Assembly (NCBI RefSeq): GCF_009729855.1
Contig: NZ_WODA01000014.1
Span: 62,001-126,000, forward strand
Length of the DNA stretch: 64,000 bases
DNA from: Agromyces luteolus
GTDB lineage: Bacteria > Actinomycetota > Actinomycetes > Actinomycetales > Microbacteriaceae
Direction of reading: 5' to 3'
Made by a program: the position numbers and the translations under genes. The notes below the pieces were generated by a model. It did no database searches and had not been told where the DNA came from. It worked only from the letters and a program-made list of their open reading frames with translations. Shown here one piece after another: positions 2,999 to 63,205 of the stretch (the stretch's first letter is position 1; each line of letters begins with the position of its first letter).

Positions 2999-4275
2999 GC
3001 GCGGTGCGCGAGGACCCCGCGGTCCCGTCGGCATCCGAGTCCGGTCCCGTGCCCGCCCGCGCCGCTCGGGCGGTCTCACCCGGCGTGCGGGCGTCGCTCA
3101 GCCGCAGGCGCACGTGGGTCGTCGTGGCCGTTGCGCTCCTCGCCGGCGCACTCGTCCTCGTGGCGCTGCAGGGTGCGATCCGCGCTCCCGGACCGCCGCT
3201 CGCCGCCGACGATCCGGCGCCGGGCGGCGCGCAGGCCCTCGCGCGGGTGCTGGAGGGCCGCGGGGTCGAGGTCCGGCAGGTGCGCAGCCTCGACGCCGCC
3301 CTGGACGAGGCACGGCGCGGCGCGACCGTGTTCGTCCACGACGGGCTGGGCGTACTGGATCGGGAGCGGATCGGGGAGCTCGCCTCGGTCGCCGACGCCA
3401 TCGTGATCGCCCGACCCGACTTCGCGGCGCTCGAGGTGCTCGCTCCCGGCGTGCGGCTCGCCGGCGCCGCGGAGGGCGGGCCCGGTCCAGCGGCCTGCGC
3501 CGTGCCCGCCGCGGATCGGGCCGGGACGCTCTCGGACGGGCAGCGGCTGCTGGCGATCGACGACGACGCCGCGGCAGCCGGCTTCACCGGCTGCTTCCCG
3601 TCCGGCGACGGGTTCGCCGTGGTGGCCGGGACCGCGCCGGACGGCGCCGAGGTGGCGTTGGTGGGTGCGACGACGCCGTTCGCCAACGAAACCATCGACG
3701 AGGCGGGCAACGCGGCCCTCGCGATCGGCCTGCTCGGCGAGCGCGAGCGTCTCGCCTGGTACCTGCCCGGGCCGGGCGACGCGGATGCCGCGGGCGCGCC
3801 GACCCTCGCCGAGCTGACTCCCGGATGGGTGAGCCCGGTCCTCGTCCTCCTCGTCGTCGTCACGATCGCCGCCGGCGCCTGGCGCGGCCGGCGGTTCGGT
3901 CCGCTCGTGGTCGAGGACCTTCCCGTGCACGTGCCCGCGTCCGAGACGGGCGAGGGCCGGGCGCGCCTGTACGCGCGGAGCTCCGCGCGCCTCCGGTCGA
4001 TCGACCAGCTCCGGATCGGCACGATCCGCCGACTGTCCGCCGCGCTGCGACTGCCCCGCTCGGCCGAGGTCGACGCGGTCGTCGCCTCCGCGGCGGGCGC
4101 GACCGGGCGGCCCGCGGCATCCGTTCGCGCGCTGCTCGTCGACGCCGTGCCGCGCGACGACCGCGAGCTCGTCCGCCTCGCGCGCGACCTCGACGGGCTC
4201 GAACGCGCCGTGCACGCCGCGATCGCCCCCGATGCATCCCTCGAAGCCACCGACCCGACAGGAAGGCGACCATGA
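2995..4275 (+). CDS. DUF4350 domain protein
   Basis: A 426-residue protein beginning at GTG 2995, which overlaps the preceding stop codon (GTGA). A membrane anchor lies at about residues 41-60. It is followed by an extracytoplasmic DUF4350 domain with the typical opening of the family (DDPAPGGAQALARVLEGRGV, an alpha/beta fold related to the GATase-like proteins). A second membrane segment lies near residue 285, and a cytoplasmic tail follows. The C-terminus overlaps moxR by four bases (ATGA). It is probably part of a membrane complex served by the MoxR ATPase; this is inference from gene order. Confidence 0.85.
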   Translation: MSAVREDPAVPSASESGPVPARAARAVSPGVRASLSRRRTWVVVAVALLAGALVLVALQGAIRAPGPPLAADDPAPGGAQALARVLEGRGVEVRQVRSLDAALDEARRGATVFVHDGLGVLDRERIGELASVADAIVIARPDFAALEVLAPGVRLAGAAEGGPGPAACAVPAADRAGTLSDGQRLLAIDDDAAAAGFTGCFPSGDGFAVVAGTAPDGAEVALVGATTPFANETIDEAGNAALAIGLLGERERLAWYLPGPGDADAAGAPTLAELTPGWVSPVLVLLVVVTIAAGAWRGRRFGPLVVEDLPVHVPASETGEGRARLYARSSARLRSIDQLRIGTIRRLSAALRLPRSAEVDAVVASAAGATGRPAASVRALLVDAVPRDDRELVRLARDLDGLERAVHAAIAPDASLEATDPTGRRP

Positions 4276-5243
4276 CCGACCCGATCCCCGACGACGCGCA
4301 GCTGCGCGGCGCGCTCGACCGCGTCCGCACCGAGGTGGGCAAGGCCGTCGTCGGCCAGGACGGCGCCGTGACCGGCCTCATCATCGCGCTCCTCGCCGAC
4401 GGGCACGTGCTGCTCGAGGGCGTGCCCGGCGTCGCGAAGACGCTGCTCGTTCGCACGCTCAGCCGCACGCTCCGCCTCGAGACGCGGCGCGTGCAGTTCA
4501 CCCCCGACCTCATGCCCGGCGATGTCACGGGCTCGCTCGCGTACGACCCGCGGTCGGGCGAGTTCGCCTTCCGCGAGGGACCCGTGTTCACGAACCTGCT
4601 GCTCGCCGACGAGATCAACCGGACGCCGCCGAAGACGCAGTCCGCACTGCTCGAGGCCATGGAGGAGCGACAGGTGTCGGTCGACGGCGTGACGAGGCCG
4701 CTGCCCGCACCGTTCCTCGTGGCCGCGACCCAGAACCCGATCGAGTACGAGGGCACCTACGCCCTGCCGGAGGCGCAGCTCGACCGGTTCCTGCTGAAGC
4801 TCGTGCTCGAGGTCCCGGAGCGCGACGCCGAGGTGGCGATGCTCCGCCGCCACGCCGACGGCTTCGACCCGCACGACCTCGCCGCCGCGGGCGTCGAGCC
4901 GGTCCTCGGCGCGGCCGACCTGCTCGCCGCGCGCGCCGCGGCCCGCCGCGTCGGCGTCGCCGACGACGTGCTCGCGTACGTCGTCGACCTCGCCCGCGCC
5001 ACGCGCCGGAGCCCGTCGATGCGGCTCGGCGTCAGCCCCCGCGCCGTCGCGGGCCTCCTGGCCGCGGCGAAGGCCTGGGCGTGGCTGAACGGCGTCGAGC
5101 GGGTGACGCCCGATCACGTCCAGGCCATGCTGCTTCCGGCGTGGCGCCACCGCGTGCAGCTCCGGCCCGAGGCCGAGCTCGAGGGCGTGTCGGTCGACCA
5201 GGTGCTGCGGTCGATCGTGCAGCAGGTCCAGGTCCCGCTCTGA
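4272..5243 (+). CDS. MoxR-family AAA+ ATPase
   Basis: A 323-residue ATPase. Walker A is GVPGVAKT at residues 50-57 and Walker B is LLLADEIN at about 109-116, followed by the family motif of NRTPPKTQSALLEAMEE and the sensor region ATQNPIEYEGTYALPEAQLDRF. This identifies the AAA_3/MoxR group, whose members act as chaperones that insert cofactors or assemble complexes together with von Willebrand-type partner proteins. The neighbour DUF58 protein is the usual partner. The start ATG overlaps the DUF4350 stop, and two bases separate its stop from the DUF58 start codon. Confidence 0.96.
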   Translation: MTDPIPDDAQLRGALDRVRTEVGKAVVGQDGAVTGLIIALLADGHVLLEGVPGVAKTLLVRTLSRTLRLETRRVQFTPDLMPGDVTGSLAYDPRSGEFAFREGPVFTNLLLADEINRTPPKTQSALLEAMEERQVSVDGVTRPLPAPFLVAATQNPIEYEGTYALPEAQLDRFLLKLVLEVPERDAEVAMLRRHADGFDPHDLAAAGVEPVLGAADLLAARAAARRVGVADDVLAYVVDLARATRRSPSMRLGVSPRAVAGLLAAAKAWAWLNGVERVTPDHVQAMLLPAWRHRVQLRPEAELEGVSVDQVLRSIVQQVQVPL

Positions 5244-5245
5244 CG

Positions 5246-6580
5246 ATGGCCCTCACCGGACGCTTCAGCCTGCTCGTCGCCCTCGGCGTCGTGCCCGTAG
5301 TGCTGCTCGGCGCCGACGCTGCCATCGCGTGGGCGACGCTGCTGGGCTGGCTGCTCCTGGCCCTGGCGCTCGGCGGAATCGATCTCGCGCTCGCGGCATC
5401 CCCTCGCCGCGTCGCCGTCGAACGCGACCTTCCGTCGCGGCTGCGCCTCGGCGAGACGGCCCGGTCGGAGCTGGTGCTGCGCAACCTCGGGCGGCGGATG
5501 CTGCGTGCCGAGGTCCGCGACGGATGGCCGCCGTCGGCGGGCGTGCACGGTCGGAACCGGTCGCGGGTCGACGTGCCGGCGGGCGAGGGGGGGCGCGTGA
5601 CGCTCGCCCTGACGCCGACGCGGCGCGGCGACCGCGTCACCGAGGCGATCACGGTGCGCTCGCACGGTCCGCTCGGCCTGTGGGCGCGTCAGGCGACGCT
5701 CGCCGCACCCGGCCGGCTCCGCGTGCTGCCGCCGTTCCACTCCCGCGCGCACCTGCCGTCGCGCCTCACCCGGCTCCGCGAGCTCGAGGGCCGCACCCCG
5801 ATCCTCGTCCGCGGACAGGGCACCGAGTTCGACTCGCTCCGCGAGTACGTGCGCGGCGACGACGTCCGTTCGATCGACTGGCGCGCGACGGCCCGACGCG
5901 CCGACCCGGAGTCCCCGGGGGCGGCGAAGCTCATGGTCCGCACGTGGCGGCCCGAGCGGGACCGGCGCATCGTGATCGTCGTCGACACCTCGCGCACCGC
6001 GGCGGCGCGCATCGCCGACGAGCCGCGACTCGACACGGCCTACGAGGCGGCGCTCCTCCTCGCGGCGCTCGCGACACATGCGGGCGACCGGGTGGACCTG
6101 CTGCTCTGGGACCGGCGTCGGCGCGGCCGCGTCCACGGCGCGAGCGGGGCGGACCTGCTGGCCCGCATGGTCGACACGATGGCCGACGTCGAGGCCGAGC
6201 TCATCGAGGCCGATTGGGCGGGGGTTCCCGCGCAGGTCCGCAGCGTCACGAGCCGGCGGGCGCTCGTGGTGCTGCTCACGGCAGCGGACTCCCCCGGCAG
6301 CGCGCGCGGCCTGCTGTCCGTGCTGCCCCAGCTGACCGCGCGGCACCGCGTGATCGTGGCCTCCGTCACCGATCCGACGCTCGGTGCCGCGGTGTCGCGG
6401 CGCGACGAGCTGGCCGACGTCTACGCGGCGGCGGCCGCGGAGCGCACCCGCCTCGACGGCGACCGCGTGGCCGCGGCGGCGCGGCGGCTCGGCGCGACGA
6501 CCGTGGCCGCCGGTCCGGCCGACCTGCCTCCGGCGCTCGCCGATCGGTACCTCGAGCTCAAGGCCGCCGGGCAGCTCTGA
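5246..6580 (+). CDS. DUF58 domain protein, MoxR partner
   Basis: A 444-residue protein starting at ATG 5246. Two hydrophobic segments occupy residues 7-50. Then come a beta-rich domain and the DUF58 signature around SIDWRATARR (about residue 210), followed by a von Willebrand-A-like stretch with DTSRTAA at about 250. The VWA-like portion suggests metal-dependent protein binding. This is the last gene of the operon that begins at 1146. A hairpin lies between it and the convergent SpoIIM-like gene. Confidence 0.93.
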   Translation: MALTGRFSLLVALGVVPVVLLGADAAIAWATLLGWLLLALALGGIDLALAASPRRVAVERDLPSRLRLGETARSELVLRNLGRRMLRAEVRDGWPPSAGVHGRNRSRVDVPAGEGGRVTLALTPTRRGDRVTEAITVRSHGPLGLWARQATLAAPGRLRVLPPFHSRAHLPSRLTRLRELEGRTPILVRGQGTEFDSLREYVRGDDVRSIDWRATARRADPESPGAAKLMVRTWRPERDRRIVIVVDTSRTAAARIADEPRLDTAYEAALLLAALATHAGDRVDLLLWDRRRRGRVHGASGADLLARMVDTMADVEAELIEADWAGVPAQVRSVTSRRALVVLLTAADSPGSARGLLSVLPQLTARHRVIVASVTDPTLGAAVSRRDELADVYAAAAAERTRLDGDRVAAAARRLGATTVAAGPADLPPALADRYLELKAAGQL

Positions 6581-6617
6581 GCGGATGCCGCGGGGCTCGC
6601 CGCACGGCCGGCCGTCC

Positions 6618-7645: not shown

Positions 7646-8494
7646 ATGCCCGCCGACGCCGCCCCGACGCGGACCGCGACCGCGACCGCGATCGACGACG
7701 AGGCCGTGCTCACGGGCGAGGCGGTCGCGCTCGACCTCCGCCCCGCGAGCGCCGTCATGCGCGCCGGCGGCGCCGCGATCGACGTGGCCCTGACGATCGT
7801 CGTCGGCCTGCTCTCCCTCCTCGCGATCTCGGGGCTCGACCTCGACGAGGCCGCGTTCCGCGCGGTCGGCATCGCGCTGCTCGTCTCGTGCATCGTCGTG
7901 CTGCCGACGGCCGTCGAGACGGCCTCGCGCGGCCGTTCGCTCGGCAAGCTGGCGATGGGCATCCGCGTGGTCCGCGACGACGGCGGCTCGATCGGCTTCC
8001 GGCACGCCCTCATCCGCGCGCTCACGGGCGTGCTCGAGATCTGGCTCACCTTCGGCGGTCTCGCCGTGCTCGTCGGGTTCCTGAACCCCGACTCGAAGCG
8101 CCTCGGCGACATCCTCGCCGGCACGCACGGCCAGGTCGAGCGCGTGAAGGCCTACGTGCCGGCCGCGTTCGGCGTGCCCGGGGAGCTCTCGGGCTGGGCG
8201 GCCGTCGCCGACGTCGGTCGGATGCCGGATCCGCTCGCCCGCCGGGTCGCATCGTTCCTGCGCAACGCCCCGCACCTCGCGCCCGCGAGCCGGCAGCGCG
8301 TCGCAGCAGCGCTCGCGGCCGAGGTCGCCCCCTTCGTCTCGCCGGTGCCGCACGTCGAACCCGAGCTCCTGCTCGCCGGCGTCGCAGCGCTGCGGCGCGA
8401 GCGCGATCTCGCGGCGCTGGCGCTCGTCGATGCGCGCATGCGCGCCCTCGCGCCCGTGCTCGAGTCGCGGCCGATCGGCTTCCCCGAACGCTGA
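7646..8494 (+). CDS. RDD-family membrane protein
   Basis: A 282-residue protein. The RDD family signature is visible as LRPASAVMRAGGAAIDVAL near residue 35, followed by three membrane segments up to about residue 165 and the common SRGRSLGKLAMGIRVVRDDG motif. The last 110 residues are a soluble helical extension that RDD proteins often lack. It starts 17 bases from the divergent SpoIIM-like gene. RDD proteins are sometimes transporters or antiporters; the substrate here is unknown. Confidence 0.88.
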   Translation: MPADAAPTRTATATAIDDEAVLTGEAVALDLRPASAVMRAGGAAIDVALTIVVGLLSLLAISGLDLDEAAFRAVGIALLVSCIVVLPTAVETASRGRSLGKLAMGIRVVRDDGGSIGFRHALIRALTGVLEIWLTFGGLAVLVGFLNPDSKRLGDILAGTHGQVERVKAYVPAAFGVPGELSGWAAVADVGRMPDPLARRVASFLRNAPHLAPASRQRVAAALAAEVAPFVSPVPHVEPELLLAGVAALRRERDLAALALVDARMRALAPVLESRPIGFPER

Positions 8495-8549: not shown

Positions 8550-8590
8550 GGCGGATGCCGCGGCGCACGTCGCGCGCCGCGGCATCCGCC
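8550..8590. terminator. Strong terminator made from inverted GGATGCCGC motifs
   Basis: A perfect 17-base stem pairs 8550-8566 with 8574-8590 around a seven-base loop, between the convergent RDD and ahcY genes. Each arm contains one copy of the 9-mer GGATGCCGC that recurs across the window. The position and strength make a bidirectional terminator very likely. Confidence 0.85.
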
Positions 8591-8595
8591 CGTGT

Positions 8596-10083
8596 TCAGT
8601 ACCGGTAGTGGTCGACCTTGTACGGACCCTCGACCGGCACGCCGATGTAGGCCGCCTGTTCGGGCGTGAGCACGGTGAGCTCGACGCCGAGCGCGTCGAG
8701 GTGCAGGCGCGCGACCTTCTCGTCGAGGTGCTTCGGCAGCACGTAGACCCCGATCGGGTAGGCGTCCGGCCGGGTCCAGAGCTCGATCTGGGCCAGCACC
8801 TGGTTCGCGAACGAGTTCGACATCACGAACGACGGGTGGCCGGTCGCGTTGCCCAGGTTCATGAGGCGGCCCTCGGAGAGCACGAGGATGCTGCGCCCCG
8901 TCGGCAGGCGCCACTCGTGCACCTGCGGCTTGATCTCGACCCGCTCGGCACCCTCGAGCGACTCGAGCGAGGCCATGTCGATCTCGTTGTCGAAGTGGCC
9001 GACGTTCGCGACGACCGCGAGGTGCTTCAGCGCGAGGAGGTGCTCGAGCCGCACGACGTCCTTGTTGCCCGTGCCCGTGACGAGGATGTCGACCTGGTCG
9101 GCGACGGACTCGAGCCTCGCCACCCGGTAGCCGTCCATCGCGGCCTGCAGCGCGTTGATGGGGTCGATCTCGGAGACGATGACGCGCGCGCCCTGGCCGC
9201 GCAGCGCCTCGGCCGCACCCTTGCCGACGTCGCCGTAGCCCGCGACGAACGCGACCTTGCCGCCCATGAGCACGTCGGTCGCACGGTTCAGGCCGTCGGG
9301 CAGCGAGTGGCGGATGCCGTACTTGTTGTCGAACTTCGACTTCGTCACCGAGTCGTTGACGTTGATCGCCGGGAAGAGCAGCTCGCCGTCGGCGTGCAGC
9401 TCGTACAGACGGTGCACGCCGGTCGTGGTCTCCTCGGTGACGCCCCGCAGCTCGGTCGCGATGCGGGTCCAGCGGTCGGGGCTCGCGGCGAGCGAGCGGC
9501 GGAGCGTGTCGAGCACGACGCGGTACTCCGCGCTCGCGTCATCCGCCGCCGCCGGAACCGAGCCCGCCGCCTCGAACTCGCGCCCGCGGTGCACGAGCAG
9601 CGTGGCGTCGCCGCCGTCGTCGAGGATCATGTTCGGGCCGACCCAGTCGGCGCCCGCGGCCTCGGCCTCGGCCGACCAGTCGAAGATGCGGTCGGTGCAC
9701 CACCAGTACTCCTCGAGCGTCTCGCCCTTCCAGGCGAAGACGGGCACGCCGGCGGGCTCGTCGACCGTGCCGTCCGGGCCGACGACGACCGCGGCGGCCG
9801 CTTCATCCTGCGTGGAGAAGATGTTGCAGCTCGCCCAGCGCACCTCGGCGCCGAGCGCGACGAGCGTCTCGATGAGCACCGCGGTCTGCACGGTCATGTG
9901 CAGGCTCCCCGCGATGCGGGCGCCGGCGAGCGGCTTCGACTCGCCGTACTCCGCGCGGAGCGCCATGAGGCCCGGCATCTCGTTCTCCGCGAGGCGGAGC
10001 TGGTGCCGGCCCGCCTCGGCGAGCGAGAGGTCGGCGACCTTGAAGGGCAGGGCGGATGTCGCGGAGGGCGTGACGAGGGTCAT
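8596..10083 (-). CDS. ahcY: Adenosylhomocysteinase
   Basis: This 495-residue NAD-dependent enzyme splits S-adenosylhomocysteine into adenosine and homocysteine and so keeps methylation running. The N-terminal substrate domain ([30 protein letters not shown]) and the Rossmann motif GYGDVGKG are present, and the C-terminus ends in the typical KVDHYRY. Two in-frame ATGs exist at 10092 and 10083. I prefer 10083 because GAGAAT lies seven bases before it and could be a leaderless -10. The mtrA/ahcY/manA/manB neighbourhood is conserved in actinobacteria. Confidence 0.97.
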
Positions 10084-10138
10084 GGCGTCCATTCTCGCAG
10101 CCGCGTGGGCCCGAGGCATCCGCCCGCCGCGCGAACGG

Positions 10139-11572
10139 CTACGCGCGGATGAGCGCGAGCACCTCGTCGCGGACCGCGGTCATCGTCGCGACGTCCTCGC
10201 CCTCGACGTTGAGCCGCAGCAGCGGCTCGGTGTTCGAGGGCCGCACGTTGAACCACCAGAACGGCTCGTCCTCGGCGGTGATGCCCGTCGCGGTGAGCCC
10301 GTCGAGCTCGTCGAACTCGACGCGGCCCGTGAACGCCTCGACGATCCGCGTGTAGGCGGCCGGCACGTCGGCGACGGTCGAGTTGATCTCGCCGGAGAGC
10401 GCGTACGGCGTGAACCGCGCGGACATCTCGGAGAGCGGCGCGTCCTGGGCGCCGAACTCGGCGAGGAGGTGCATGGCCGCGAGCATGCCGTTGTCGGCAC
10501 CCCAGAAGTCGCGGAAGTAGTAGTGGGCGGAGTGCTCGCCGCCGAACACCGCGCCGGTCTCGTTCATGCGGTCCTTGATGAGCGAGTGCCCGACGCGCGT
10601 GCGGACCGGGATCGCGCCCACGGCCTCGATCGTCTCGGGCACGAAGCGCGAGGTGATGAGGTTGTGGATGACGGTGGGCTCGGGCTCGCCGAGGGCGCGG
10701 ACGCGGGCGATCTCGCGGAGCGCCACGATCGCGGCGACCGCCGACGGGTCGACCGCCTCGCCGCGCTCGTCGACGACGAAGCAACGGTCGGCGTCGCCGT
10801 CGAACGCGAGCCCGAGGTCGGCGCCCTGCTCGAGCACCGCGCGCTGCAGGTCGACGAGGTTGGCGGGGTCGAGCGGGTTCGCCTCGTGGTTCGGGAAGGT
10901 GCCGTCGAGCTCGAAGTAGAGCGGGACGATCTCGAGCGGGAGGGCGGGCAGGCCCGCCGCCTCGCCCAGGACCGCGGGCACCGTGAGCCCGCCCATGCCG
11001 TTGCCGGCGTCGACGACCACCTTCAGCGGGCGGATGCCGCCGAGGTCGACGAGGGTGCGGAGGTGCTCGGCGTAGTCGGCGAGGACGTCGGCCCGCTCGA
11101 CGCGACCGGGCTCGGGCACGACGGGGACGCCGGCCTCGAGGTAGTCGGCGGCGCGGTCGCGGATGGCCGCGAGCCCGGTGTCGAGCGAGATGCCCTGGGC
11201 CCCCGCCCGGGAGAACTTGATGCCGTTGTAGGCGGCCGGGTTGTGGCTGGCGGTGAACATCGCCGCGGGCGCGTGCAGCGAACCCGAGGCGAAGTAGCTC
11301 TCGTCGGTCGAGCAGAGGCCGATCGCGACGACGTCGGCGCCGCGTGCGGCGGCGCCGCGGGCGAACGCCTCGGCGAATCCCGGCGACGAGTCGCGCATGT
11401 CGTGGCCGACGACGACGCGGCCGCCCCCGGCGCCGACCTCGTCGACGAACCCGGCCCCGAGCGCCTCGACGACCTCGGCGGTCAGCGCCTCGCCGACGAT
11501 GCCCCGGACGTCGTAGGCCTTCACGATCGTTTCGAGGCGCGCGAGAGCACCCGGCTGCACGGGGGGATTCAT
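10139..11572 (-). CDS. manB: Phosphomannomutase/phosphoglucomutase
   Basis: This 477-residue alpha-D-phosphohexomutase converts mannose-6-phosphate to mannose-1-phosphate, the step before GDP-mannose. The catalytic phosphoserine is Ser109 in FTASHNP. The metal site is DGDADRC (about residue 260), the sugar-binding [10 protein letters not shown] loop is present, and the phosphate-binding RPSNTEP stretch lies near the C-terminus. The start overlaps the stop of the DUF3499 gene (ATGA), so the two are coupled. Together with manA it can feed the glycosyltransferases of the polysaccharide locus. Confidence 0.95.
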
Positions 11573-12322: not shown

Positions 12323-13762
12323 CTACTGCGGGAACACGCGCACCGGGCTGTCGAGGGGACCCGGCGGCGCGACCGGGATCGAGGCGAGCGCGTCGTCGGC
12401 CTCGAAGGTGACCGCGGCGTGCGCGCCCTCGACGCCGTCGAGGATCACGCGGTCGCCGCCCTGCACGGCCACGGAGGCCGTGCCGCCGGCCGGGACGGTC
12501 ACCGAGCGCTCGGCCCCGCCGATCGCGACCGTCGCGGTGACCTCCGCGTCGCCGGGGTTCGCCAGTCGGAGGCTCGCTCCCGGCCCCTCGGGGATCGCGA
12601 CCGCGGCGCGCTCGAGGAGCGGACCGGTTGCGGCCGACCAGGCCAGGTCGGCGAGGATCGGGTCGTCGCCGTCGCCGAGGACCGTGGAGCGCGCGGCCGC
12701 CACGACGGGTGCGTCCGCGTCGACGACCACGGTGTACGAGCCGGGATCGAGCGCGCCGAGCGGGAGGTCGGTGGTCTGGCCCGCGGCGAGCGTGACGTCG
12801 ATCCGCGAGACGGCCGCGCCGCCCTCGTCCCGGACCTCGACGACCGCGGAGGCCTCGGCGTCGTCGGGCGCGAACAAGCGCAGTGCGGCGAAGTCGTCGC
12901 CCTCGGCGTGGTCCTCGTCGGGCGCCACGCCCTGGAGGTCGGTCACGACGAGCCCGGGCACGACCTGGCGGGTCGCGGGCGGGGCGACCGGCGTCGACAG
13001 CTCGACACCCGCGGGTTCGAGGCCCAGCACGACCGAGTGCTGCAGCGCCGCGGCGATCGGCGCGCCCGAGCTCGTGACGTGGACGACCGGCGTGCGCACG
13101 CTCGGCGCGAGGCCGGCGAGCGAGACGACGCGCTGGCTCGCCGGGGGCACGACGATGCCGAGGCCGGCCGGCGCCTCGACCGCCCCGGCCTCGCCGACCA
13201 CCCGGACGTCGACCGTGGAGGCGACCTCGCCGGGGTTGGCGAGCAGCACCAGCCCCGATCGTCCGACCTCGGTGGCGCCCGCGACGAGCCACGAGTCGGA
13301 TGCCGGCTCGACGCACGCCGCGGCGGCGAGGCCGCTCAGCGACTCGGTCGCCGCGGCCTGCGACTGCGCACCCGCGAGCATCCCGGCCAGCACCGCCCCG
13401 GGCTCGGCGGAGATCGCGACCGGACCGCCGTCCGCGGCCGCCCCGGCGTTGTCCGGCGCGTCGAGGGGAACCTGCTCGATGGCCGCGCTCTCCGGGTCGG
13501 CCGCGACGACGAGCTCCGGTGCACCGACCGACCGGGCGGTGGCCGCCGCCGCGGCGTCGTCCGCGAGCGAGAGCAGCGGACCCGGACAGACCCGGAGCTG
13601 CCGGCTCTCCGCCGGCTGCACCACCGTCGACGGCGGTTCGGCCGCGACCTCGGGCAGCGCCGCGACGGATGCCGCGAGCAGCGCGCCCGCGACGAGGCCG
13701 CCCGCGGCCACGACCGCGACGCCCCGAACGACCCCCCGGATCACGTCACGCCTCGTCGGCAC
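12323..13762 (-). CDS. DUF5719 membrane-anchored extracytoplasmic protein
   Basis: A 479-residue protein. I chose GTG 13762 because GGAGG lies eight bases upstream; in that reading it overlaps the end of the upstream glycosyltransferase gene by 17 bases. Residues 9-35 form one membrane anchor (VVRGVAVVAAGGLVAGALLAASVAAL). The remainder is a chain of beta-rich extracytoplasmic segments rich in Val, Ala and Gly. DUF5719 proteins in this family accompany the large glycosyltransferase/membrane protein encoded upstream, so the two probably work together at the cell surface. The precise role is unknown. Confidence 0.82.
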   Translation of the reverse strand: MPTRRDVIRGVVRGVAVVAAGGLVAGALLAASVAALPEVAAEPPSTVVQPAESRQLRVCPGPLLSLADDAAAAATARSVGAPELVVAADPESAAIEQVPLDAPDNAGAAADGGPVAISAEPGAVLAGMLAGAQSQAAATESLSGLAAAACVEPASDSWLVAGATEVGRSGLVLLANPGEVASTVDVRVVGEAGAVEAPAGLGIVVPPASQRVVSLAGLAPSVRTPVVHVTSSGAPIAAALQHSVVLGLEPAGVELSTPVAPPATRQVVPGLVVTDLQGVAPDEDHAEGDDFAALRLFAPDDAEASAVVEVRDEGGAAVSRIDVTLAAGQTTDLPLGALDPGSYTVVVDADAPVVAAARSTVLGDGDDPILADLAWSAATGPLLERAAVAIPEGPGASLRLANPGDAEVTATVAIGGAERSVTVPAGGTASVAVQGGDRVILDGVEGAHAAVTFEADDALASIPVAPPGPLDSPVRVFPQ

Positions 13763-16776: not shown

Positions 16777-16810
16777 GGCGGCCGCCCCCGCGGCATCCGT
16801 CAGCACTGCG

Positions 16811-19571: not shown

Positions 19572-19591
19572 GCGGATGCCGCGGCATCCGC
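19572..19591. terminator. Terminator from face-to-face GGATGCCGC motifs
   Basis: A 20-base perfect palindrome (arms GCGGATGCCG and CGGCATCCGC) in the 34-base gap between the convergent regulator and manA genes. Both arms are the recurrent 9-mer, as in the terminators at 8550 and 52907. Confidence 0.7.
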
Positions 19592-49140: not shown

Positions 49141-49752
49141 TCAGTTCCCCTTGGAGTTCAGCGAGTCGTAGAAGGCGCGAGCGGCCTCCCAGGTGGGCAG
49201 CAGTCCGGATGCCGCGGCCTCGGCGAGGCTCGGAGCGTCGGTGTCCTTCGGCGAGAGCAGCAGGTCGCTCGAGTCGAGCGTGAAGTCCAGCCCGATCTCG
49301 CGGTCGAGCGGGTTCACGCCGTGCTCGCGTGGCGCGTTGAACGGCGCGGTGACGAGGTAGCTCACGGTCGCGTCGTCGCTCAGCGCGACGAAGCAGTGCC
49401 CGAGTCCCTCGGCGATGTAGATCGCCCGCCGGTCGTGCTCGTCGAGCAGCACCGAGTCCCACTGTCCGAACGTGGGCGAGCCCACGCGGATGTCGATCAC
49501 GAAGTCGAGGACCGCACCGCGGGTCGCCGTGACGTACTTCGCCTGGCTCGGCGGGATGTCGGCGAAGTGGATGCCGCGCACGACGCCGCGCTTGGACACC
49601 GAGGTGTTGGCCTGCGCGAGCGACAGCGGGTGCCCGATCGCCTCCTCGAGGCGATCGAAGCGGTACCACTCGAGGAAGACGCCGCGGTCGTCGCCGAACT
49701 GCTTCGGGGTGATCTCGTAGCTGTCGGGGATCTTCAGTTCGCGGATCTGCAC
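49141..49752 (-). CDS. rfbC: dTDP-4-dehydrorhamnose 3,5-epimerase
   Basis: A 203-residue cupin epimerase, third enzyme of the rhamnose pathway. The catalytic His sits in RGIHF and the Tyr in DDATVSYLVT; the GLGHCFVALSD motif is typical. The GTG start at 49752 follows a TAGACT -10 by six bases, so the rfbC-rfbA mRNA is leaderless. The PIG-V-type gene ends 30 bases upstream and may also read into it. Confidence 0.96.
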   Translation of the reverse strand: MQIRELKIPDSYEITPKQFGDDRGVFLEWYRFDRLEEAIGHPLSLAQANTSVSKRGVVRGIHFADIPPSQAKYVTATRGAVLDFVIDIRVGSPTFGQWDSVLLDEHDRRAIYIAEGLGHCFVALSDDATVSYLVTAPFNAPREHGVNPLDREIGLDFTLDSSDLLLSPKDTDAPSLAEAAASGLLPTWEAARAFYDSLNSKGN

Positions 49753-52027: not shown

Positions 52028-52876
52028 GTGCGCGTGCTCATCACCGGCGCGAACGGGATGCTGGGCCGGGACCTCCAGTCGGCGCTCGCTGGCCGCGAGG
52101 TGACCGCGCTCGGCCGTGCCGACCTCGACGTGACGGATGCCGCCGCCGTCGCCGCGGCCGTGGCGGGTCATGACGTGGTCGTCAACTGCGCCGCCTACAC
52201 GAAGGTCGACGACGCCGAGTCGCACGAGGAGCAGGCCTACGCCGTCAACGCCACCGGCACGGCGAACCTCGCCGCCGCGTGCGCGGCCGTCGGAGCGCGC
52301 TTCGCGACCGTCTCCACCGACTACGTGTTCGACGGGAACGCGACGGAGCCGTACGCCGAGGACCTCCCCCGCGATCCGATCAACGCCTACGGCCGCACCA
52401 AGGCCGCCGGCGAGGAGCTCGCGCTCGCCGCGCATCCTGACGGCACCTATGTCGTCCGCACGGCCTGGCTGTACGGCGAGCACGGCGCGAACTTCGCGCA
52501 GACCATGCTGAACCTCGCGAGGTCGAAGGACACGTGGTCGGTCGTCGACGACCAGCTCGGCCAGCCCACGTGGACGGCCGACCTCGCGGCGCAGATCGTC
52601 CTGCTGCTCGACGCCGACGCCCCCGCGGGCGTCTACCACGGCACCAACTCCGGCCAGGCCACCTGGTACGAGTTCGCGAGGGCCGTGCTCGAGGAATCCG
52701 GCCTCGACCCCGAGCGGATCACGCCGACGGACAGCTCGTCGTTCGTGCGCCCGGCTCCGCGTCCGTCGTACTCGGTGCTCGGGCACGCCGCGTGGGCGGC
52801 CGCCGGACTCGCCGAGATGCGGCCGTGGCGCGACGCGCTCGCCGACGCGGTCCGCTCCGGCGCGCTCACGGCCTGA
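52028..52876 (+). CDS. rfbD: dTDP-4-dehydrorhamnose reductase
   Basis: A 282-residue SDR that makes dTDP-L-rhamnose with NAD(P)H, the last step of the pathway. VLITGANGMLGRDLQSAL is the cofactor motif, VNCAAYTKVDDAE is typical of RmlD, STDYVFDGNATEPYAED and NAYGRTKAAGE hold the catalytic residues. GTG 52028 lies two bases after rfbB. It ends at a convergent junction with a motif-built terminator. Confidence 0.96.
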   Translation: MRVLITGANGMLGRDLQSALAGREVTALGRADLDVTDAAAVAAAVAGHDVVVNCAAYTKVDDAESHEEQAYAVNATGTANLAAACAAVGARFATVSTDYVFDGNATEPYAEDLPRDPINAYGRTKAAGEELALAAHPDGTYVVRTAWLYGEHGANFAQTMLNLARSKDTWSVVDDQLGQPTWTADLAAQIVLLLDADAPAGVYHGTNSGQATWYEFARAVLEESGLDPERITPTDSSSFVRPAPRPSYSVLGHAAWAAAGLAEMRPWRDALADAVRSGALTA

Positions 52877-52906: not shown

Positions 52907-52950
52907 GCGTCGCGGCATCCGTCTTCGATACCGAGCGGATGCCGCGGCGC
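52907..52950. terminator. Terminator from inverted GGATGCCGC motifs
   Basis: A 15-base stem (52907-52921 with 52936-52950, one G-U pair) around a 14-base loop between convergent rfbD and the GT2 gene. Each arm contains the recurrent 9-mer, as at 8550 and 19572. Confidence 0.7.
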
Positions 52951-52958: not shown

Positions 52959-54476
52959 TCAGAGCATCCGGGAGTACATCTCGACCTGCATCCGGCGGGA
53001 CCACCGCGACTGGAGGGTGGAGATGTCGGTGTCGAGGATCTTCGGGTCGCGCGTCTTGGACTCGAAGTGGTACAGGCGGGCCCACGGCGAGAACACTGCG
53101 GAGCGACCGGTCGCGCGGATCTTCATGTTCAGGTCGACGTCGTTGTAGTTGCCGGGGAAGGCGAGGCTGAACCCGCCCACCTCCAGGAACACGTCGCGTC
53201 GGACCAGCGCGCAGGCGGCGGTGACGCCGGAGACCTCGTGGTCGACGCTGAGCGACTTGATCGAGTCGTCCCGGCCGCCCTCCCAGCCGAACGCGGCATG
53301 ACCGGCGACCCCGCCGGTGTACACCTGCCCGGAGTGCTGGAGGGTGCTGTCCTCGAAGTAGAGCTGCGCGCCGACGATGCCCACGCCCGGCTGGCGTGCG
53401 AGGCCGACCATCGTCTCGAGCCAGTCGGGCGTCACGATCTCGACGTCGTCGTTGAGGAGCATCAGGAACTCGCCGCGAGCCGCGGCAGCGCCGCGGTTCA
53501 TCTTGCCGCTGAAGTTGAACGGCGCGTCCCAGAGCACGAGGCGCAGCCGATCGCCGCAGATCCGCTCGAGCTCGTCGACGACGGGCCTCGGCGTCTCGGC
53601 GTCCGCGACGATCACGACCTCGACGTTGTCGTAGCCGGAGCCGTCGATCACTCCCCGGACGGCCTCGACGACCAGCGCCCGGTCGACGCCGCCGATCACC
53701 GCGCTGCTGCCGCGCGTGGGGATGACCACCGAGACGAGCGGCTGGTCGTCGACGTCGTAGCGCACCCGCCGGAGGAAGGGCTCGACCTCCTCGACGCGCG
53801 CGCGGATGCCGCGCGCGTCGAGTTCGTGCTCCACGACCCGACGCTGCGCGTCGGACGTTCCGGCGTAGTCGTCGTGGGCCAGGTCCTCGACCGCGAGGAC
53901 CTCGGGAACGAGCGCGACCGGTTCGCCGGCGCGATCGAGCCGCAGCACGAGGTCGAGCACCTGGGAGCGCCGGGCGTCGGCACGCAGGCCTCCGAGACGC
54001 CGCAGGGCATCGATCCGGATCGCGACGACCGGACCGAGGTAGTCGTTGCCGAGGAGACGCAGCGGCGAGAACAGGGGCCGGAGGAGCGGAGCGCCGGTCT
54101 CGGTGGTCGAGTCGCCGTAGACGGCCTGGACCGCCGGGAATCGTGCGAGGAAGCCGTCGAGCTTCGCGATGCCGTCGGGCACGATCCGGCCGCCGCGGAC
54201 GATGACGAGCGTCTCCGCGGAGGTTCGCGCGACGAGGTCGTCGAGGACGGCGGCATCCGCGACGGTCACGGCCGCGCCGGCCTGCCGCGCCGTCTCGGCG
54301 AGCTCGGCCCGCATCGACTCGTCGATGCCCTCGTGCGCGACGACCTGCACGGAGCCCGGCGCGACGCCCGCGGCCAGCACGGCGTCGACGGCGCGCTTCG
54401 CCTCGCCTTCGGCGAGGCCCGCCGCGTCGATCCACACGTCGAAGCGGTCCGTCGCCTGCGACCGGTCTTCGCTCAT
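52959..54476 (-). CDS. Two-part GT2 glycosyltransferase
   Basis: A 505-residue protein. Residues 10-215 look like a degenerate GT-A domain with no clear metal site, and residues 245-480 form a full GT2 domain: PLVSVVIPTRGSSAVIG, DNVEVVIVADAETPRPV, FNFSGKMNRGAAAARGEFLM and LLNDDVEIVTPDWLETMVGL. LVRRDVFLEVGGFSLAFPGN follows. Such double-domain enzymes occur in rhamnan and teichoic-acid-like loci. It is coupled to the small coiled-coil protein by an ATGA overlap. Confidence 0.87.
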   Translation of the reverse strand: MSEDRSQATDRFDVWIDAAGLAEGEAKRAVDAVLAAGVAPGSVQVVAHEGIDESMRAELAETARQAGAAVTVADAAVLDDLVARTSAETLVIVRGGRIVPDGIAKLDGFLARFPAVQAVYGDSTTETGAPLLRPLFSPLRLLGNDYLGPVVAIRIDALRRLGGLRADARRSQVLDLVLRLDRAGEPVALVPEVLAVEDLAHDDYAGTSDAQRRVVEHELDARGIRARVEEVEPFLRRVRYDVDDQPLVSVVIPTRGSSAVIGGVDRALVVEAVRGVIDGSGYDNVEVVIVADAETPRPVVDELERICGDRLRLVLWDAPFNFSGKMNRGAAAARGEFLMLLNDDVEIVTPDWLETMVGLARQPGVGIVGAQLYFEDSTLQHSGQVYTGGVAGHAAFGWEGGRDDSIKSLSVDHEVSGVTAACALVRRDVFLEVGGFSLAFPGNYNDVDLNMKIRATGRSAVFSPWARLYHFESKTRDPKILDTDISTLQSRWSRRMQVEMYSRML

Positions 54477-58440: not shown

Positions 58441-58946
58441 CGGCTCGACTTCAGCCGTTCGTTCTTCTCCTCGACGAGCGCCGCGAGCGACGCGGCGTAC
58501 CCGGCGAGCGCGTCGCGCAGCGCGTCGTCGGCGGTGGCGAGGATCTTCACCGCGATGAGGCCGGCGTTCTTCGCGCCGCCGATCGACACGGTCGCCACCG
58601 GCACGCCGGCCGGCATCTGGACGATCGAGAGCAGCGAATCGAGCCCGTCGAGGCGCGACAGGGGCACGGGCACGCCCACGACCGGGAGGGTCGTCACCGA
58701 CGCGAGCATGCCGGGCAGGTGTGCGGCGCCGCCCGCGCCGGCGATGATGACGCGGATGCCGCGGGCGGCGGCCTCCTTGCCGTACGCGATCATCTTCTCG
58801 GGCGTGCGGTGCGCCGAGACCACCTCGACCTCGTGCGGGACGCCGAACTCGTCGAGGAGCTCCGAGGCGTCCTTCATCACGGACCAGTCGGAGTCCGAGC
58901 CCATGACGACGCCGACGAGGGGGGCGGTGGGGTTGCCTGCGATCAC
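58437..58946 (-). CDS. purE: N5-carboxyaminoimidazole ribonucleotide mutase
   Basis: A 169-residue purine enzyme that rearranges N5-CAIR to [41 protein letters not shown] and [14 protein letters not shown] are the class I PurE motifs. The GTG start at 58946 follows TAATAT by exactly seven bases, so the mRNA is leaderless. The LCP gene is coupled to it, so the wall enzyme is co-expressed with purine synthesis. Confidence 0.97.
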
Positions 58947-59017: not shown

Positions 59018-60148
59018 TCAGTCCTGCAACGCCGCGGCCGCCGCGCGCGCCTCGTAGACCGCGTCGTCGAGGTCGTCGCCGATCGCCGTCACGTGGCCCA
59101 CCTTCCGGCCCGGGCGCGGGGCCTTGCCGTAGTTGTGGATCTTCACCGTCGGGTGGGACGCGAGCGCCTCGGCGTACCGGTCGGCGAGGGTGCCCTCGGC
59201 GGGGCCGCCGAGCAGGTTCACCATGACCGCCCACTCGGCGTGGCATCCGGTGCCGCCGAGCGGCAGGTCGAGCACGGCGCGCAGGTGCTGCTCGAACTGC
59301 CCGGTGGTCGCGCCGTCCATGCTCCAGTGGCCGGAGTTGTGGGGTCGCATCGCCAGTTCGTTCACGAGCACGCGGTCGTCGGTCGTCTCGAACATCTCGA
59401 CCGCGAGCACGCCGGTGACGTCGAGCCCCTCGGCGATCGCGACGGCGACGTCGGCGGCGACGTCGGCGAGCCGGCCGGCGGAGTGGGGCGCCGGGGCGAT
59501 GACCTCGCTGCAGACGCCGCCGACCTGCACGGTCTCGACGAGCGGCCAGGCGACCACCTCGCCCGACGGGCGACGGGCGACGAGCTGGGCGAGCTCGCGG
59601 CGGAAGTCGACGAGCTCCTCCGCGAGGAGCGCACCGTCGCGACCGTCCTCCGCGATGGCCGCGAACCACTCGGCGACCTCGGCGGCGGCGCGCACCACGC
59701 GGACGCCCTTGCCGTCGTAGCCGCCCCGCGGCGTCTTCACGACGGCCGAGCCGCCGTGCTCGGCGATGAACGCGTCGAGCTCCTCGGGGCTCGACACCCG
59801 GGCCCACTCGGGGACCGGGAGACCGAGTTCGGCGAGGCGCTCGCGCATGAGGAGCTTGTCCTGCGCGAAGCGCAGGGCGTCGGGGCCCGGGTGCACCCGG
59901 ATCCCCGCGTCGACGAGCGCGCGCAGCACGTCCTGCGGCACGTGCTCGTGGTCGAAGGTGACGACGTCGACCTCGCGGGCGAACGGGAGCACCGCGTCGA
60001 GGTCGGTGTAGTCGCCGACGCGGTCGGCCGCGAGTCCGGCCGCCATCCCGTCGGCCTCAGCGAGCACCCGGAGCTCGACGCCGAGCTCGATCGCCGCGGG
60101 GATCATCATGCGGGCGAGCTGTCCTGCGCCGATCACTCCGACTCGCAC
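59018..60148 (-). CDS. purK: N5-carboxyaminoimidazole ribonucleotide synthase
   Basis: A 376-residue ATP-grasp enzyme that carboxylates AIR using ATP and bicarbonate. [22 protein letters not shown] opens the N-terminal domain; [17 protein letters not shown] is the ATP-grasp loop; [34 protein letters not shown] is the metal and substrate site. GTG 60148 has GAAGG eight bases upstream. It has its own TAGACT promoter and a 71-base gap to purE. Confidence 0.97.
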
Positions 60149-60219: not shown

Positions 60220-60225
60220 CGGGGG

Positions 60226-60861: not shown

Positions 60862-61682
60862 ACCGCGACGCGCGTCTTCGCCCCGACCGCGGCGAGCGCG
60901 GCGCGGACGCGATCGCGCACGCGGTCGTTCGACACCGCGATGAGCGCGATCCGCTCGAGCGGCACGCCGCCGCGCACGAGCAGCTCGCCGGTCCGCAGGC
61001 CCTCGCCGTCGTCGGCGAGTGTGAGCCGCACGACGGCGCGCGAGACCGCGGACCAGTCGGCTGCGAGCTCGGCGCCGCCGACCGAGGCATCCGTCGCGCT
61101 CACCACGACCTCGCCGTCGACCTCGCGTCGGGCCCCGGCCGCGGCCGCGACGGAGGACACGAGGATGACGTGATCGGCGGCGGCCCGTTCGACGGCCTCG
61201 GCCGCGAGCCGCGGGTCCGGCGTGCCGGTGCGGATCGCGTCCCACACGTGCGCGTCGGTGCTGAGCAGGAACGGGACGTACTCGGCGACGGTCGCGTCGG
61301 CGCCGGGCACGGTGGCGGTCCGGCGGTACGTCCGCGCGGCCGGCGCGGCGATGTCGACCGCGGGCGCCGCCGGCGGGTCGCCCGCGTCGGCGAGGATCGC
61401 TCCGGCGCCGAGGATCCGCCCGAGGTTCTCGATGTGCGTGACGTGGTAGATGCGGGAGGCCCCCACGTCGACCGGGGCGGCCGAGGCGCCGCTCGCCGCG
61501 CGGGCCGAACGGGCGGATGCCGCGGGCCCGGCGCCGCGGACCGCGGCGCGCTCCCTCGGGGCGCTCCGGCCGGTGGGCTTCCGCGTCGCGCGTGCGGGCT
61601 TCGGCGCGGCTGCGGGCTCAGGCGGGGGCGAGCAGATCGCGCAGAGGCCCTCGTCGAATCCGTGGATGCATTCCTCGCCCAA
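60828..61682 (-). CDS. DarT-like (DUF4433) ADP-ribosyltransferase family protein
   Basis: A 284-residue protein starting at TTG 61682, with GAAGGG about ten bases upstream. Residues 5-17 hold CIHG and CAIC (Cys5, His7, Cys14, Cys17), a small metal-site-like cluster. A low-complexity linker of about 55 residues follows. Residues 76-280 resemble the DarT fold: RIYHVTHIENLGRIL with the NAD-site His (YHVTH at 79-83), YVPFLLSTDAHVWDAI, and Glu233 in TGELLVRGGVPLERI where DarT has its catalytic Glu. DarT toxins ADP-ribosylate thymidine in single-stranded DNA. No DarG antitoxin macrodomain gene lies nearby. Confidence 0.72.
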   Translation of the reverse strand: MGEECIHGFDEGLCAICSPPPEPAAAPKPARATRKPTGRSAPRERAAVRGAGPAASARSARAASGASAAPVDVGASRIYHVTHIENLGRILGAGAILADAGDPPAAPAVDIAAPAARTYRRTATVPGADATVAEYVPFLLSTDAHVWDAIRTGTPDPRLAAEAVERAAADHVILVSSVAAAAGARREVDGEVVVSATDASVGGAELAADWSAVSRAVVRLTLADDGEGLRTGELLVRGGVPLERIALIAVSNDRVRDRVRAALAAVGAKTRVAVYPPWFLGSSD

Positions 61683-61797: not shown

Positions 61798-62358
61798 TCA
61801 GCGGCCGTTCCAGGGGAGCGCTTCGGCGGTCGTGAACGCCGCCGGGCGCGCGGCGGGTCCGACGGCGGGTCCGCCGAGTGCGTGCGCGCCGGCCATGAGC
61901 TCGTGCAGCGCGGCCTGCACCTCGAGCGGCTTCGGCACGTCGCGGATCACGACCGCGACCTCGTGCCCGGTCTCCAGCCGCACGTCGCCCGAACCCGACA
62001 TCCGCTGCAGCCAGGACCGGGTGACCTGGACGTCGTACCCCGAACGGTGCCAGAGCTCGCGCCTGACGCGGACGAACAGCCCGCGACGGACGATGACGCG
62101 ACGCGTGGTGATCGTGGTGCGCGAGCTGAGCCAGCCGAGGTAGGGCAGCAGGCTGCCGAGCACGACGACGAGCGACCCGGCGACGATCGCCGCGAGGCTC
62201 GGCCAGCCGTCCTCCAGCCACGGCACCGCGTACGCGGTGACGCCCGCGACGGCGATCAGCAGGACGGCGGGCAGCACGAGCGCGCGCCCGTGGCGGCGCA
62301 GTCGCGCCACGACGTGCTCGGCGCCGTCGGGCACGGGAACCTCGGCCGTCTCCCCCAT
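61798..62358 (-). CDS. PH-domain (bPH2) membrane protein
   Basis: A 186-residue protein with two membrane segments (about 27-45 and 53-75) followed by a bacterial PH-like domain containing TTITTRRVIVRRGLF and the usual late SGSGDVRLETG turn. It starts seven bases after birA and is probably cotranscribed with it. The same birA-PH pair occurs in mycobacteria next to accD5. Function is unknown; membrane association is clear. Confidence 0.9.
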   Translation of the reverse strand: MGETAEVPVPDGAEHVVARLRRHGRALVLPAVLLIAVAGVTAYAVPWLEDGWPSLAAIVAGSLVVVLGSLLPYLGWLSSRTTITTRRVIVRRGLFVRVRRELWHRSGYDVQVTRSWLQRMSGSGDVRLETGHEVAVVIRDVPKPLEVQAALHELMAGAHALGGPAVGPAARPAAFTTAEALPWNGR

Positions 62359-62365
62359 AGGCCCA

Positions 62366-63205
62366 TTAATACCTCAGGTGCGTGACGTCTCCCGCGGCGA
62401 CAGCCTGCTCCTCGCCGTTCTCGTCGTCGCGGACCACGAGGCGCCCGTCGGCGTCGATGCGCTCCGCGACGCCGACGAGCTCGCCGCCCCCCGGAAGCTC
62501 GACGCGCACGTCCTGTCCGAGCGTGCCGCACAGCGTCGTCACGCGGTCGGCGAGGCCGCTCGCGATCGGATCTCCGCCGGCGGCGGCGAACTCGGCCGTC
62601 GACGCGAGCAGGCGCTCCAGGTAGTCGGCGAGGACGGCGTCGGCGTCCGGCCGGACGCCCGTCGCCAGCTGCAGCGAGGTCGACGTCAGCGTCGGCAGGT
62701 CGTGCTCGTCGAGCGTGAGGTTGAGGCCCGCTCCGATCACGACGGTGTCCCCGGCGACGAGCTCCGAGAGGATGCCGCACACCTTGAACCCCGACACGAG
62801 CACGTCGTTGGGCCACTTCAGCCACGCCTCGACGCCGCCCGTGCCGTCCTCCTCGCCGCCCCGGTCGACGGATGCCGCGGCGAGCGCCCCGCGGACCGCC
62901 TCGGTCATCGCCGCGCCCGCGAGGAGCGGGAGCCAGCCGAGCGCGTCCGGCGGGAGCTTCGCGCCGCCGAGCTCGGATAGGCGGATGAGGACCGAGATCG
63001 CGAGCGTCTTCCCGGTCGGCGCGAGCCAGGTGCGTCCGAGGCGCCCGCGACCGCTCGTCTGGTCGTCGGTCACGACGGTCGCGCCGTGGGGCCAGCCCGC
63101 GGCATCCGCACCGGTGACGGCCTCGCGCAGGACGTCGTTCGTCGACCCGGTCGAGTCGAGCCACTCGAACCTCGGCACCGCTCGTCGCGATCGCTCCCAG
63201 TCCAT
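62366..63205 (-). CDS. birA: Biotin-[acetyl-CoA-carboxylase] ligase
   Basis: A 279-residue enzyme that charges biotin as biotinyl-AMP and attaches it to carrier proteins. The motif GRGRLGRTWLAPTGKTLAISVL binds biotinyl-AMP, and AWLKWPNDVLVSGFKVCGIL holds the catalytic Lys; the C-terminal SH3-like domain follows. It lacks the N-terminal helix-turn-helix, so it is a ligase only and not a repressor. GGGGAGG lies four bases before ATG 63205. Divergent from the carboxylase gene whose partner subunit it serves. Confidence 0.95.
   Translation of the reverse strand: MDWERSRRAVPRFEWLDSTGSTNDVLREAVTGADAAGWPHGATVVTDDQTSGRGRLGRTWLAPTGKTLAISVLIRLSELGGAKLPPDALGWLPLLAGAAMTEAVRGALAAASVDRGGEEDGTGGVEAWLKWPNDVLVSGFKVCGILSELVAGDTVVIGAGLNLTLDEHDLPTLTSTSLQLATGVRPDADAVLADYLERLLASTAEFAAAGGDPIASGLADRVTTLCGTLGQDVRVELPGGGELVGVAERIDADGRLVVRDDENGEEQAVAAGDVTHLRY

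Follow-up and report, generated by a model that had tools for sequence, protein, structure and literature searches.

A dispersed short word in Agromyces luteolus as a candidate uptake-sequence-like tag of the Microbacteriaceae

Why should one nine-letter word, GGATGCCGC, recur throughout a stretch of an actinobacterial chromosome, within genes as well as between them? We asked this of 64,000 nucleotides of Agromyces luteolus (contig NZ_WODA01000014.1, positions 62,001 to 126,000, here C6:62001-126000), the whole of which we call the window, in a genome of 3.90 Mb in 26 contigs. Our findings suggest that the word belongs to a longer consensus, [AG]CGGATGCC[GTA]CG, which is probably the A. luteolus dialect of a self tag, similar to a DNA uptake sequence (DUS), used across the family Microbacteriaceae.

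The window holds 35 exact copies of GGATGCCGC (24 plus, 11 minus), compared with a mean of 2.47 and a maximum of 9 in 100 dinucleotide shuffles and a third-order Markov expectation of 3.4. A sequence-only reading of the window had noticed this excess and rightly anticipated that composition would yield only a few copies, but its count of 33 (22 plus, 11 minus) was too low. Some of the positions that it quoted are exact, and several are off by 1-4 bases: the copies placed at 13666, 24462, 47382, 49206, 58753 and 62869 begin at 13667, 24460, 47378, 49207, 58754 and 62870. Copies in the window, by coding sequence (CDS) or intergenic position, include:

3783..3791, plus, GGATGCCGC, in CDS 3124-4275 (plus)
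4114..4122, minus, GGATGCCGC, in CDS
5393..5401, minus, GGATGCCGC, in CDS 5246-6580
6583..6591, plus, GGATGCCGC, intergenic, directly past the stop of 5246-6580
11032..11040, plus, GGATGCCGC, in phosphomannomutase-like CDS 10139-11572 (minus)
13667..13675, plus, GGATGCCGC, in CDS
14429..14437, plus, GGATGCCGC, in CDS
16790..16798, minus, GGATGCCGC, intergenic
17344..17352, plus, GGATGCCGC, in CDS
22971..22979, minus, GGATGCCGC, in CDS
24460..24468, plus, GGATGCCGC, in CDS
28233..28241, minus, GGATGCCGC, in CDS
29108..29116, plus, GGATGCCGC, in CDS
29159..29167, plus, GGATGCCGC, in CDS
29811..29819, plus, GGATGCCGC, in CDS
32524..32532, plus, GGATGCCGC, in CDS
32607..32615, minus, GGATGCCGC, in CDS
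33375..33383, plus, GGATGCCGC, in CDS
47378..47386, plus, GGATGCCGC, in CDS
49207..49215, plus, GGATGCCGC, in CDS
49569..49577, plus, GGATGCCGC, in CDS
52135..52143, plus, GGATGCCGC, in CDS
52912..52920, minus, GGATGCCGC, between convergent 52028-52876 (plus) and 52959-54476 (minus)
52937..52945, plus, GGATGCCGC, in the same convergent gap, opposite to the 52912 copy
53804..53812, plus, GGATGCCGC, in glycosyltransferase-like CDS 52959-54476 (minus)
54250..54258, minus, GGATGCCGC, in glycosyltransferase-like CDS 52959-54476 (minus)
58754..58762, plus, GGATGCCGC, in CDS
61515..61523, plus, GGATGCCGC, intergenic
62770..62778, plus, GGATGCCGC, in CDS
62870..62878, plus, GGATGCCGC, in CDS
63099..63107, minus, GGATGCCGC, in CDS

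Over the whole genome GGATGCCGC occurs 2538 times and the reversed word 92 times. In a 740-kb sample of this genome (G000; the window plus L009-L043) we counted 534 copies, against 32, 48 and 108 under Markov models of orders 2, 3 and 4, so the excess survived the Markov comparison that the sequence-only reading had proposed. The largest numerical excess in the sample belongs to a word longer than nine letters, the degenerate 11-12-mer consensus given above; a few words resembling repetitive extragenic palindromes (REP) exceed it in z-score, each on about 40 copies. The form CGGATGCCGCG has 372 copies compared with 5.8-9.8 expected from motif-masked third- and fourth-order models, and among its one-mismatch forms (positions numbered from 0) those altered at 1-5 (GGATG) or at 9 stay close to background or beneath it. 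Flanks outside the 12-mer are unrelated and carry almost no information; the word is therefore not a dispersed repeat element. The window also contains variant copies, in which CGGATGCC lacks the following GC:

3030..3037, minus, CGGATGCC variant, intergenic
7958..7965, minus, CGGATGCC variant, in CDS
8219..8226, plus, CGGATGCC variant, in CDS
9311..9318, plus, CGGATGCC variant, in CDS
10115..10122, minus, CGGATGCC variant (CGGATGCCTCG), intergenic
13297..13304, plus, CGGATGCC variant, in CDS
22035..22042, plus, CGGATGCC variant, in CDS
25842..25849, minus, CGGATGCC variant (CGGATGCCACG), in CDS
29392..29399, minus, CGGATGCC variant (CGGATGCCACG), in CDS
30479..30486, minus, CGGATGCC variant (CGGATGCCTCG), in CDS
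31537..31544, minus, CGGATGCC variant, in CDS
34775..34782, minus, CGGATGCC variant, in CDS
36543..36550, plus, CGGATGCC variant, in CDS
41879..41886, plus, CGGATGCC variant, intergenic
42250..42257, minus, CGGATGCC variant, in CDS
48917..48924, plus, CGGATGCC variant, in CDS
59242..59249, minus, CGGATGCC variant (CGGATGCCACG), in CDS
61086..61093, minus, CGGATGCC variant (CGGATGCCTCG), in CDS

The word acts at the level of DNA, independently of protein selection, as had been proposed from the window. Using genes from a home-made codon-model caller (674 genes, 89% coding, in the 740 kb), we found GGATGCCGC in all six frames, with 204 sense and 215 antisense copies inside genes, compared with 17-25 and 43-59 in synonymous-codon shuffles, a 3.6-12-fold excess. 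Density between genes is twice that within them (1.33/kb versus 0.64/kb). The motif does force rare codons, as claimed: 8.9% of Asp codons are GAT, and CGGATGCC accounts for 205 of the 1262 GAT and 198 of the 1259 GCA codons. Gap type could be assigned to 108 of the 111 intergenic copies; convergent gaps are densest (31 in 12.2 kb), ahead of codirectional (61 in 40.3 kb) and divergent ones (16 in 23.6 kb).

Could such an excess be a functionless mutational or codon-pair bias? The words next to it give some grounds for this. GGACGCCGC is at about half its synonymous expectation (63 versus 122-127, sense and antisense together), and neighbours of CGGATGCC, with the motif masked, reach about 0.7 of expectation (second G, 60 versus 83; A, 167 versus 238), so that the excess arises partly at their cost. 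However, strict-position neighbours range from 0.7 to 1.2 of expectation and their net deficit of ~97 is small against a word excess of ~630; conversion is therefore at most a part of the explanation, and single-step mutational conversion was rejected as the whole source. The occurrence in all frames, the twofold intergenic excess, the retention in close relatives and the scarcity in 19 sister families (both below) also argue against bias, which we regard as very improbable.

Paired copies show a preferred arrangement. Among pairs at most 60 bp apart, 44 are inverted and facing, 10 are in the opposite arrangement and 10 are on the same strand. Of the 44 facing pairs, 24 fall between genes, 22 of them no more than 100 bp from the 3′ end of a gene. 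Such hairpins may serve as terminators. Two lie in the window:

8552..8588, inverted CGGATGCCGCG pair forming a hairpin, copies 8553-8561 (plus) and 8579-8587 (minus), between convergent 7646-8494 (plus) and 8596-10092 (minus)
19573..19590, 18-bp perfect palindrome CGGATGCCGCGGCATCCG, copies at 19574 (plus) and 19581 (minus), between convergent 18608-19564 (plus) and 19599-20768 (minus)

Several palindromes lie ~272 bases from a gene end; this coincidence was considered and set aside, the genes inspected being unrelated.

Short, frequent, over-represented words may also be Chi-like recombination signals or KOPS-like polar motifs of segregation or replication. Because contig orientations are arbitrary, the genome-wide strand total for GGATGCCGC (1279/1259) is uninformative alone, and strands were read per contig, independently of the position of the replication origin. 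Contig C6 as a whole, window included, gave 45/38 and a sample of C12 95/99; mild skews, which would suit a polar signal, were found in a sample of C9 (93/66, p 0.04) and in the window (24/11, p 0.04). Nonetheless, a Chi-like strand bias of 75% is rejected for C6 (p 3e-5), C9 (p 4e-6) and C12 (p 6e-13), ten 20-kb samples on one 3.4-Mb contig of genome G238 gave 76/68 for GGATGCC, and palindromic and hairpin pairs are unexpected for such signals. This explanation is improbable, and the recombination option of the sequence-only reading, if polar, is disfavoured along with a segregation signal because the per-contig counts lack a strong bias. An apparent polarity, with mostly plus copies listed for some genomes, was probably a display effect; the counted stretches held both strands.

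Is the word kept in relatives? The phosphomannomutase protein points to Agromyces cavernae (85% identity) and A. soli (83%) as the closest named relatives. As a control for retention we took adjacent 8-mers of the same phase, counting only copies with enough control positions. Of the copies, 54-70% persist in close relatives (87-88% identity), compared with 31-35% of the control 8-mers: G611 (87% identity), which has 33 of 46 aligned CGGATGCC in common, retains 70% versus 31% (n=44) and G622 54% versus 35% (n=41). Retention in G371 is 45% versus 20% (n=20). The orthologue comparison suggested earlier thus gives a divided answer: copies are better kept than their neighbours in these three relatives but are lost in G315 and G079, which use another dialect and have 1 of 11 aligned copies in common in each.

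We then surveyed the order (218 genomes), in which abundance of the word is confined to the Microbacteriaceae. CGGATGCC reaches 0.42-0.95/kb in 14 of 16 members of the family (f1), with G164 and G380 low, whereas 202 genomes of 19 other families have ~0.015-0.16/kb, near background, by hand-computed densities; there the word reaches up to ~4x the reversed control, versus ~20x here. Across 398 family genomes from 85 genera, every genome has at least 5 copies of GGATGCCGC (maximum 3053), and in some genera, g36 among them, the count does not exceed the reversed-word control (g labels are genus labels of the genome set; g1 is the genus of the window). Among 80 family genomes (47 genera) picked for extremes rather than at random, GGATGCC density is at least 0.6/kb in 40, 0.35-0.6 in 12 and less in 28; the densest is G057 (g58), with 7364 copies in ~3.9 Mb (1.9/kb).

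Samples of 40-677 kb per genome revealed dialects, with mostly one dominant word per genome, although several sampled genera yielded none. CGGATGCCGCG is the dialect of A. luteolus and G371; CGGATGCCTCG that of other g1 genomes, prevailing in G079 and G315 and part of a mixture in G240; CCGGATGCC that of g78 and the form in the G238 sample; and CGGATGCCG that of G106, G063 and G102. Some lineages with background levels of GGATGCC are enriched in another word, CGGATCC in the case of G164 and g35 and AGGAGGCG in that of g36. Genome-wide, six g35 genomes hold 5503-6608 CGGATCC and G164 holds 6303, compared with at most 2222 in 34 others (41 genomes), and nine g36 genomes hold 811-1714 AGGAGGCGC, compared with at most 522 in 31 others (40 genomes). 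In g36, AGGAGGCG is also intergenic and in five reading frames; an origin from ribosome-binding sites was discarded, with 1 of 37 copies at such a place. G164 is a species of g85, and of its eight genus-mates seven hold 606-1496 CGGATCC and G599 holds 370. GGATGCC numbers 3609-5725 in six of seven genus-mates, 1614 in G380 and 812 in G164. Since the genus-mates are rich in GGATGCC and G164 in CGGATCC, the word was replaced as a whole; G380, with intermediate counts, was assigned no word. No clear alternative word appeared in 40-kb samples of the low-density genera g5, g46, g17, g51, g15, g14 and g52, of which g5, g46, g17 and g51 hold 1554-2222 CGGATCC.

Two further observations concern the dialects. 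G315 (L174-L176) has a second abundant word, GGATGTCTC (17 versus 0.6 expected), beside GGATGCCTC, so that possibly two dialects coexist in one genome. A 20-kb stretch of Microbacterium phage Min1 (L257, 1-20000) contains CGGATCC, the g35/G164 word, 20 times and GGATGCC 6 times; this single phage stretch was set aside as evidence.

The letters of the words raise the question of a restriction-modification or orphan methylation site, enriched by selection or repair bias. GGATG lies in the core and GGATCC in the g35/G164 dialect, both of which we take to be restriction sites; A. luteolus carries two Vsr-like genes; and among the neighbours that deamination would produce, one is depleted, that with A for the second G of CGGATGCC (6 versus 13.7). 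Restriction sites, however, are usually avoided rather than enriched, and most deamination-type neighbours escape depletion, the C-to-T ones at positions 6 and 7 being above expectation (117 versus 63 and 63 versus 44). Vsr is present in 11 of 32 genomes, unrelated to the word, and was dismissed as a driver, being absent from four GGATGCC-dense genomes (G315, G328, G057, G063) and three CGGATCC genomes (G034, G109, G164). We thus hold a methylation site to be quite improbable.

Along the chromosome, CGGATGCC is missing from 1 of 146 5-kb bins, matching a Poisson scatter, and the spacing, pairs aside, fits a random exponential (Kolmogorov-Smirnov (KS) p 0.68) with no regular pattern; the two lowest-GC 5-kb bins have 0.2/kb versus ~1/kb elsewhere. 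A genome-wide presence of ~1/kb on both strands would suit the main rival, a binding site of a chromosome-organising (nucleoid-associated) or global DNA-binding protein with lineage-specific specificity, as would the conservation in close relatives, and dialects could follow a co-evolving binding protein. Yet the spacing is random, copies lie mainly inside genes despite the codon cost, and such a site does not account for the facing pairs past gene ends. In addition, family-only spread and whole-word replacement, as in g85, are to our knowledge unusual for a nucleoid protein. We consider this explanation unlikely.

Copy number, the lack of strong polarity, gene-end hairpins, selective retention and whole-word dialects together form the signature of DNA uptake sequences. 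An uptake tag is therefore the function that we favour, and the likeness to DNA uptake sequences first remarked on in the window is strengthened by the dialects, hairpins, conservation, family restriction and competence genes. We infer from these an uptake preference, a receptor and a drive. A DNA-binding protein on the surface of a competence pilus, probably of the Tad/Flp type as in Micrococcus luteus, would prefer word-bearing DNA during natural transformation; this DNA would be passed to ComEA and ComEC and recombined by RecA. Substitution would create new copies and recombination would preserve them because, we propose, word-bearing fragments enter more often, which may lead to the near-random scatter of ~1 per kb. 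A shift in receptor specificity could then make the whole genome drift to a new dialect (CGGATGCCTCG, CCGGATGCC, CGGATCC or AGGAGGCGC).

What is known of the machinery? Transformation of the actinobacterium M. luteus requires tad genes (excerpts of PMC4322843), and natural transformation occurs in two members of the Microbacteriaceae, Rhodoluna lacicola and Aurantimicrobium photophilum (excerpts of PMC11577799). In A. luteolus, a ComEA gene (SLBB plus helix-hairpin-helix) lies directly before that for ComEC. ComEC (PF03772) is present in 80 of the 80 picked genomes, word-poor ones included, so it permits uptake but does not discriminate word-bearing genomes. The T2SSE ATPase, present in 32 of 32 genomes, failed as a discriminator too. 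TadE (PF07811) has three matches in A. luteolus, and 337 of the 398 family genomes have at least one. A first comparison of 28 family genomes gave TadE in 10 of 10 versus 11 of 18 (p 0.03). Strong TadE matches (E 1e-7 or better) were then found in 20 of 22 GGATGCC-dense genera (at least 0.6/kb) versus 11 of 25 sparser ones (Fisher p 0.0008), with a cut-off set after seeing the data, picked genomes, no correction for phylogeny, and genomes absent from the listed matches (such as G320) entered as having none.

In g36, nine genomes have AGGAGGCGC replacing GGATGCC (G035, G110, G167, G218, G260, G298, G330, G357, G382). TadE has no match in G035 and G110, weak ones in G167, G218 and G260 and a stronger one in G298 (5.9e-8), and matches to the PilB-type ATPase are strong in both genomes tested, G035 and G110. 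Pilus type and word may be linked.

Several findings weigh against an uptake tag, among them the post hoc nature of the TadE comparison and the presence of ComEC in genomes without the GGATGCC word. Genera g8 and g12 are GGATGCC-dense yet have absent or weak TadE, and 11 genera carry TadE without dense GGATGCC. Sampled family members with small genomes (0.9-1.9 Mb) hold 0.12-0.45 GGATGCC/kb, and the transformable R. lacicola and A. photophilum are presumably of this type. One-mismatch forms of CGGATGCCGCG at positions 0, 6, 7, 8 and 10 are enriched. Genes of atypical codon usage are scarcely poorer in copies (0.66 versus 0.75-0.80/kb), too small a difference to demonstrate depletion in foreign DNA, and the most codon-adapted tenth of genes has 0.11/kb versus ~0.75/kb, a difference that is partly circular because the word's own codons reduce the adaptation score. 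Seven more distant relatives retain the word slightly above, equal to or below control: 27% versus 16% in G606, 26% versus 18% in G616, 20% versus 17% in G643, 20% versus 23% in A. cavernae, 14% versus 17% in A. soli, 11% versus 27% in G315 and 9% versus 26% in G079.

Two other repeats occur in L009-L043 but not in the window. One, REP-like and built around GGTCTCGATACGsGCGCTTCGCGysCTACTCGACCACCGG (38 copies of GTCTCGATAC), is, in inspected copies, often clustered and partly inverted, with related words in the samples of G045 and G265. A second element has 13 copies of ATGAGAATCC; in the ten inspected it starts ATGAGAATCCG, usually GCATGAGAATCCG or ACATGAGAATCCG, and is often followed by an inverted partner ending CGGATTCTC or CGGATCCTC.

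Pasteurellaceae and Neisseriaceae are both Gram-negative. Sequence-specific uptake evolved in these two bacterial families, according to excerpts of a review (PMC5031613). We think it rather probable that the Microbacteriaceae hold a third, actinobacterial, uptake-sequence-like system. The fuller proposal, that this family independently evolved a Gram-positive sequence-specific uptake, probably read by a Tad/Flp pilus protein, with a word replaced repeatedly (GGATGCC by CGGATCC inside g85; AGGAGGCGC in g36) and dialects acting as barriers to gene exchange between species, has in our estimate an even chance of being correct. Among the matches listed in the open-licence literature, subscription papers and preprints being outside it, none dealt with a word of this kind, with uptake sequences of the Microbacteriaceae or with a comparable tag in actinobacteria, and Microbacterium with 'DNA uptake sequence' gave no match. 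If true, this would be a third, unrelated case in which to ask how uptake specificity arises, with dialect switches visible, which protein is the Tad-type receptor and whether dialects set up barriers between species of soil bacteria. Donor DNA equipped with the word may also make these bacteria easier to transform in the laboratory.

How does the word compare with known systems? HIP1 (GCGATCGC) of cyanobacteria is likewise a strongly over-represented short word, hugely so, but is a palindrome, whereas the Agromyces word lacks that symmetry, extends into a degenerate consensus and comes in dialects. Chi and KOPS are also short and frequent on chromosomes, yet they are strongly strand-biased, a polarity that the Agromyces word lacks; we know of no actinobacterial Chi. 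Uptake signal sequences (USS) of the Pasteurellaceae are an unrelated word with A-rich flanks, which were not seen here. Like the Agromyces word, USS are nine nucleotides long, genome-wide and split into dialects (excerpts of PMC5031613), and their receptor is predicted to be the minor pilin ComN (excerpts of PMC12616744). The DUS of Neisseriaceae differ in that the Agromyces word is unrelated in sequence, GC-rich, from a Gram-positive actinobacterium and a candidate rather than an established uptake tag, and in that some Microbacteriaceae dialects (AGGAGGCGC) share little of the core. The pilin receptor of the Neisseria DUS is ComP, whereas the pilus here is probably Tad rather than type IVa. 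In both systems inverted pairs occur at gene ends, and a 2007 paper reportedly described those of DUS as terminators. Both are 10-12-mers in hundreds to thousands of copies, also inside genes. According to excerpts of PMC3630211, Neisseriaceae genomes carry 943-5918 DUS copies in eight dialects, similar to the 2538 copies of the 9-mer found here, and likewise show lineage dialects with usually one dominant word per genome.

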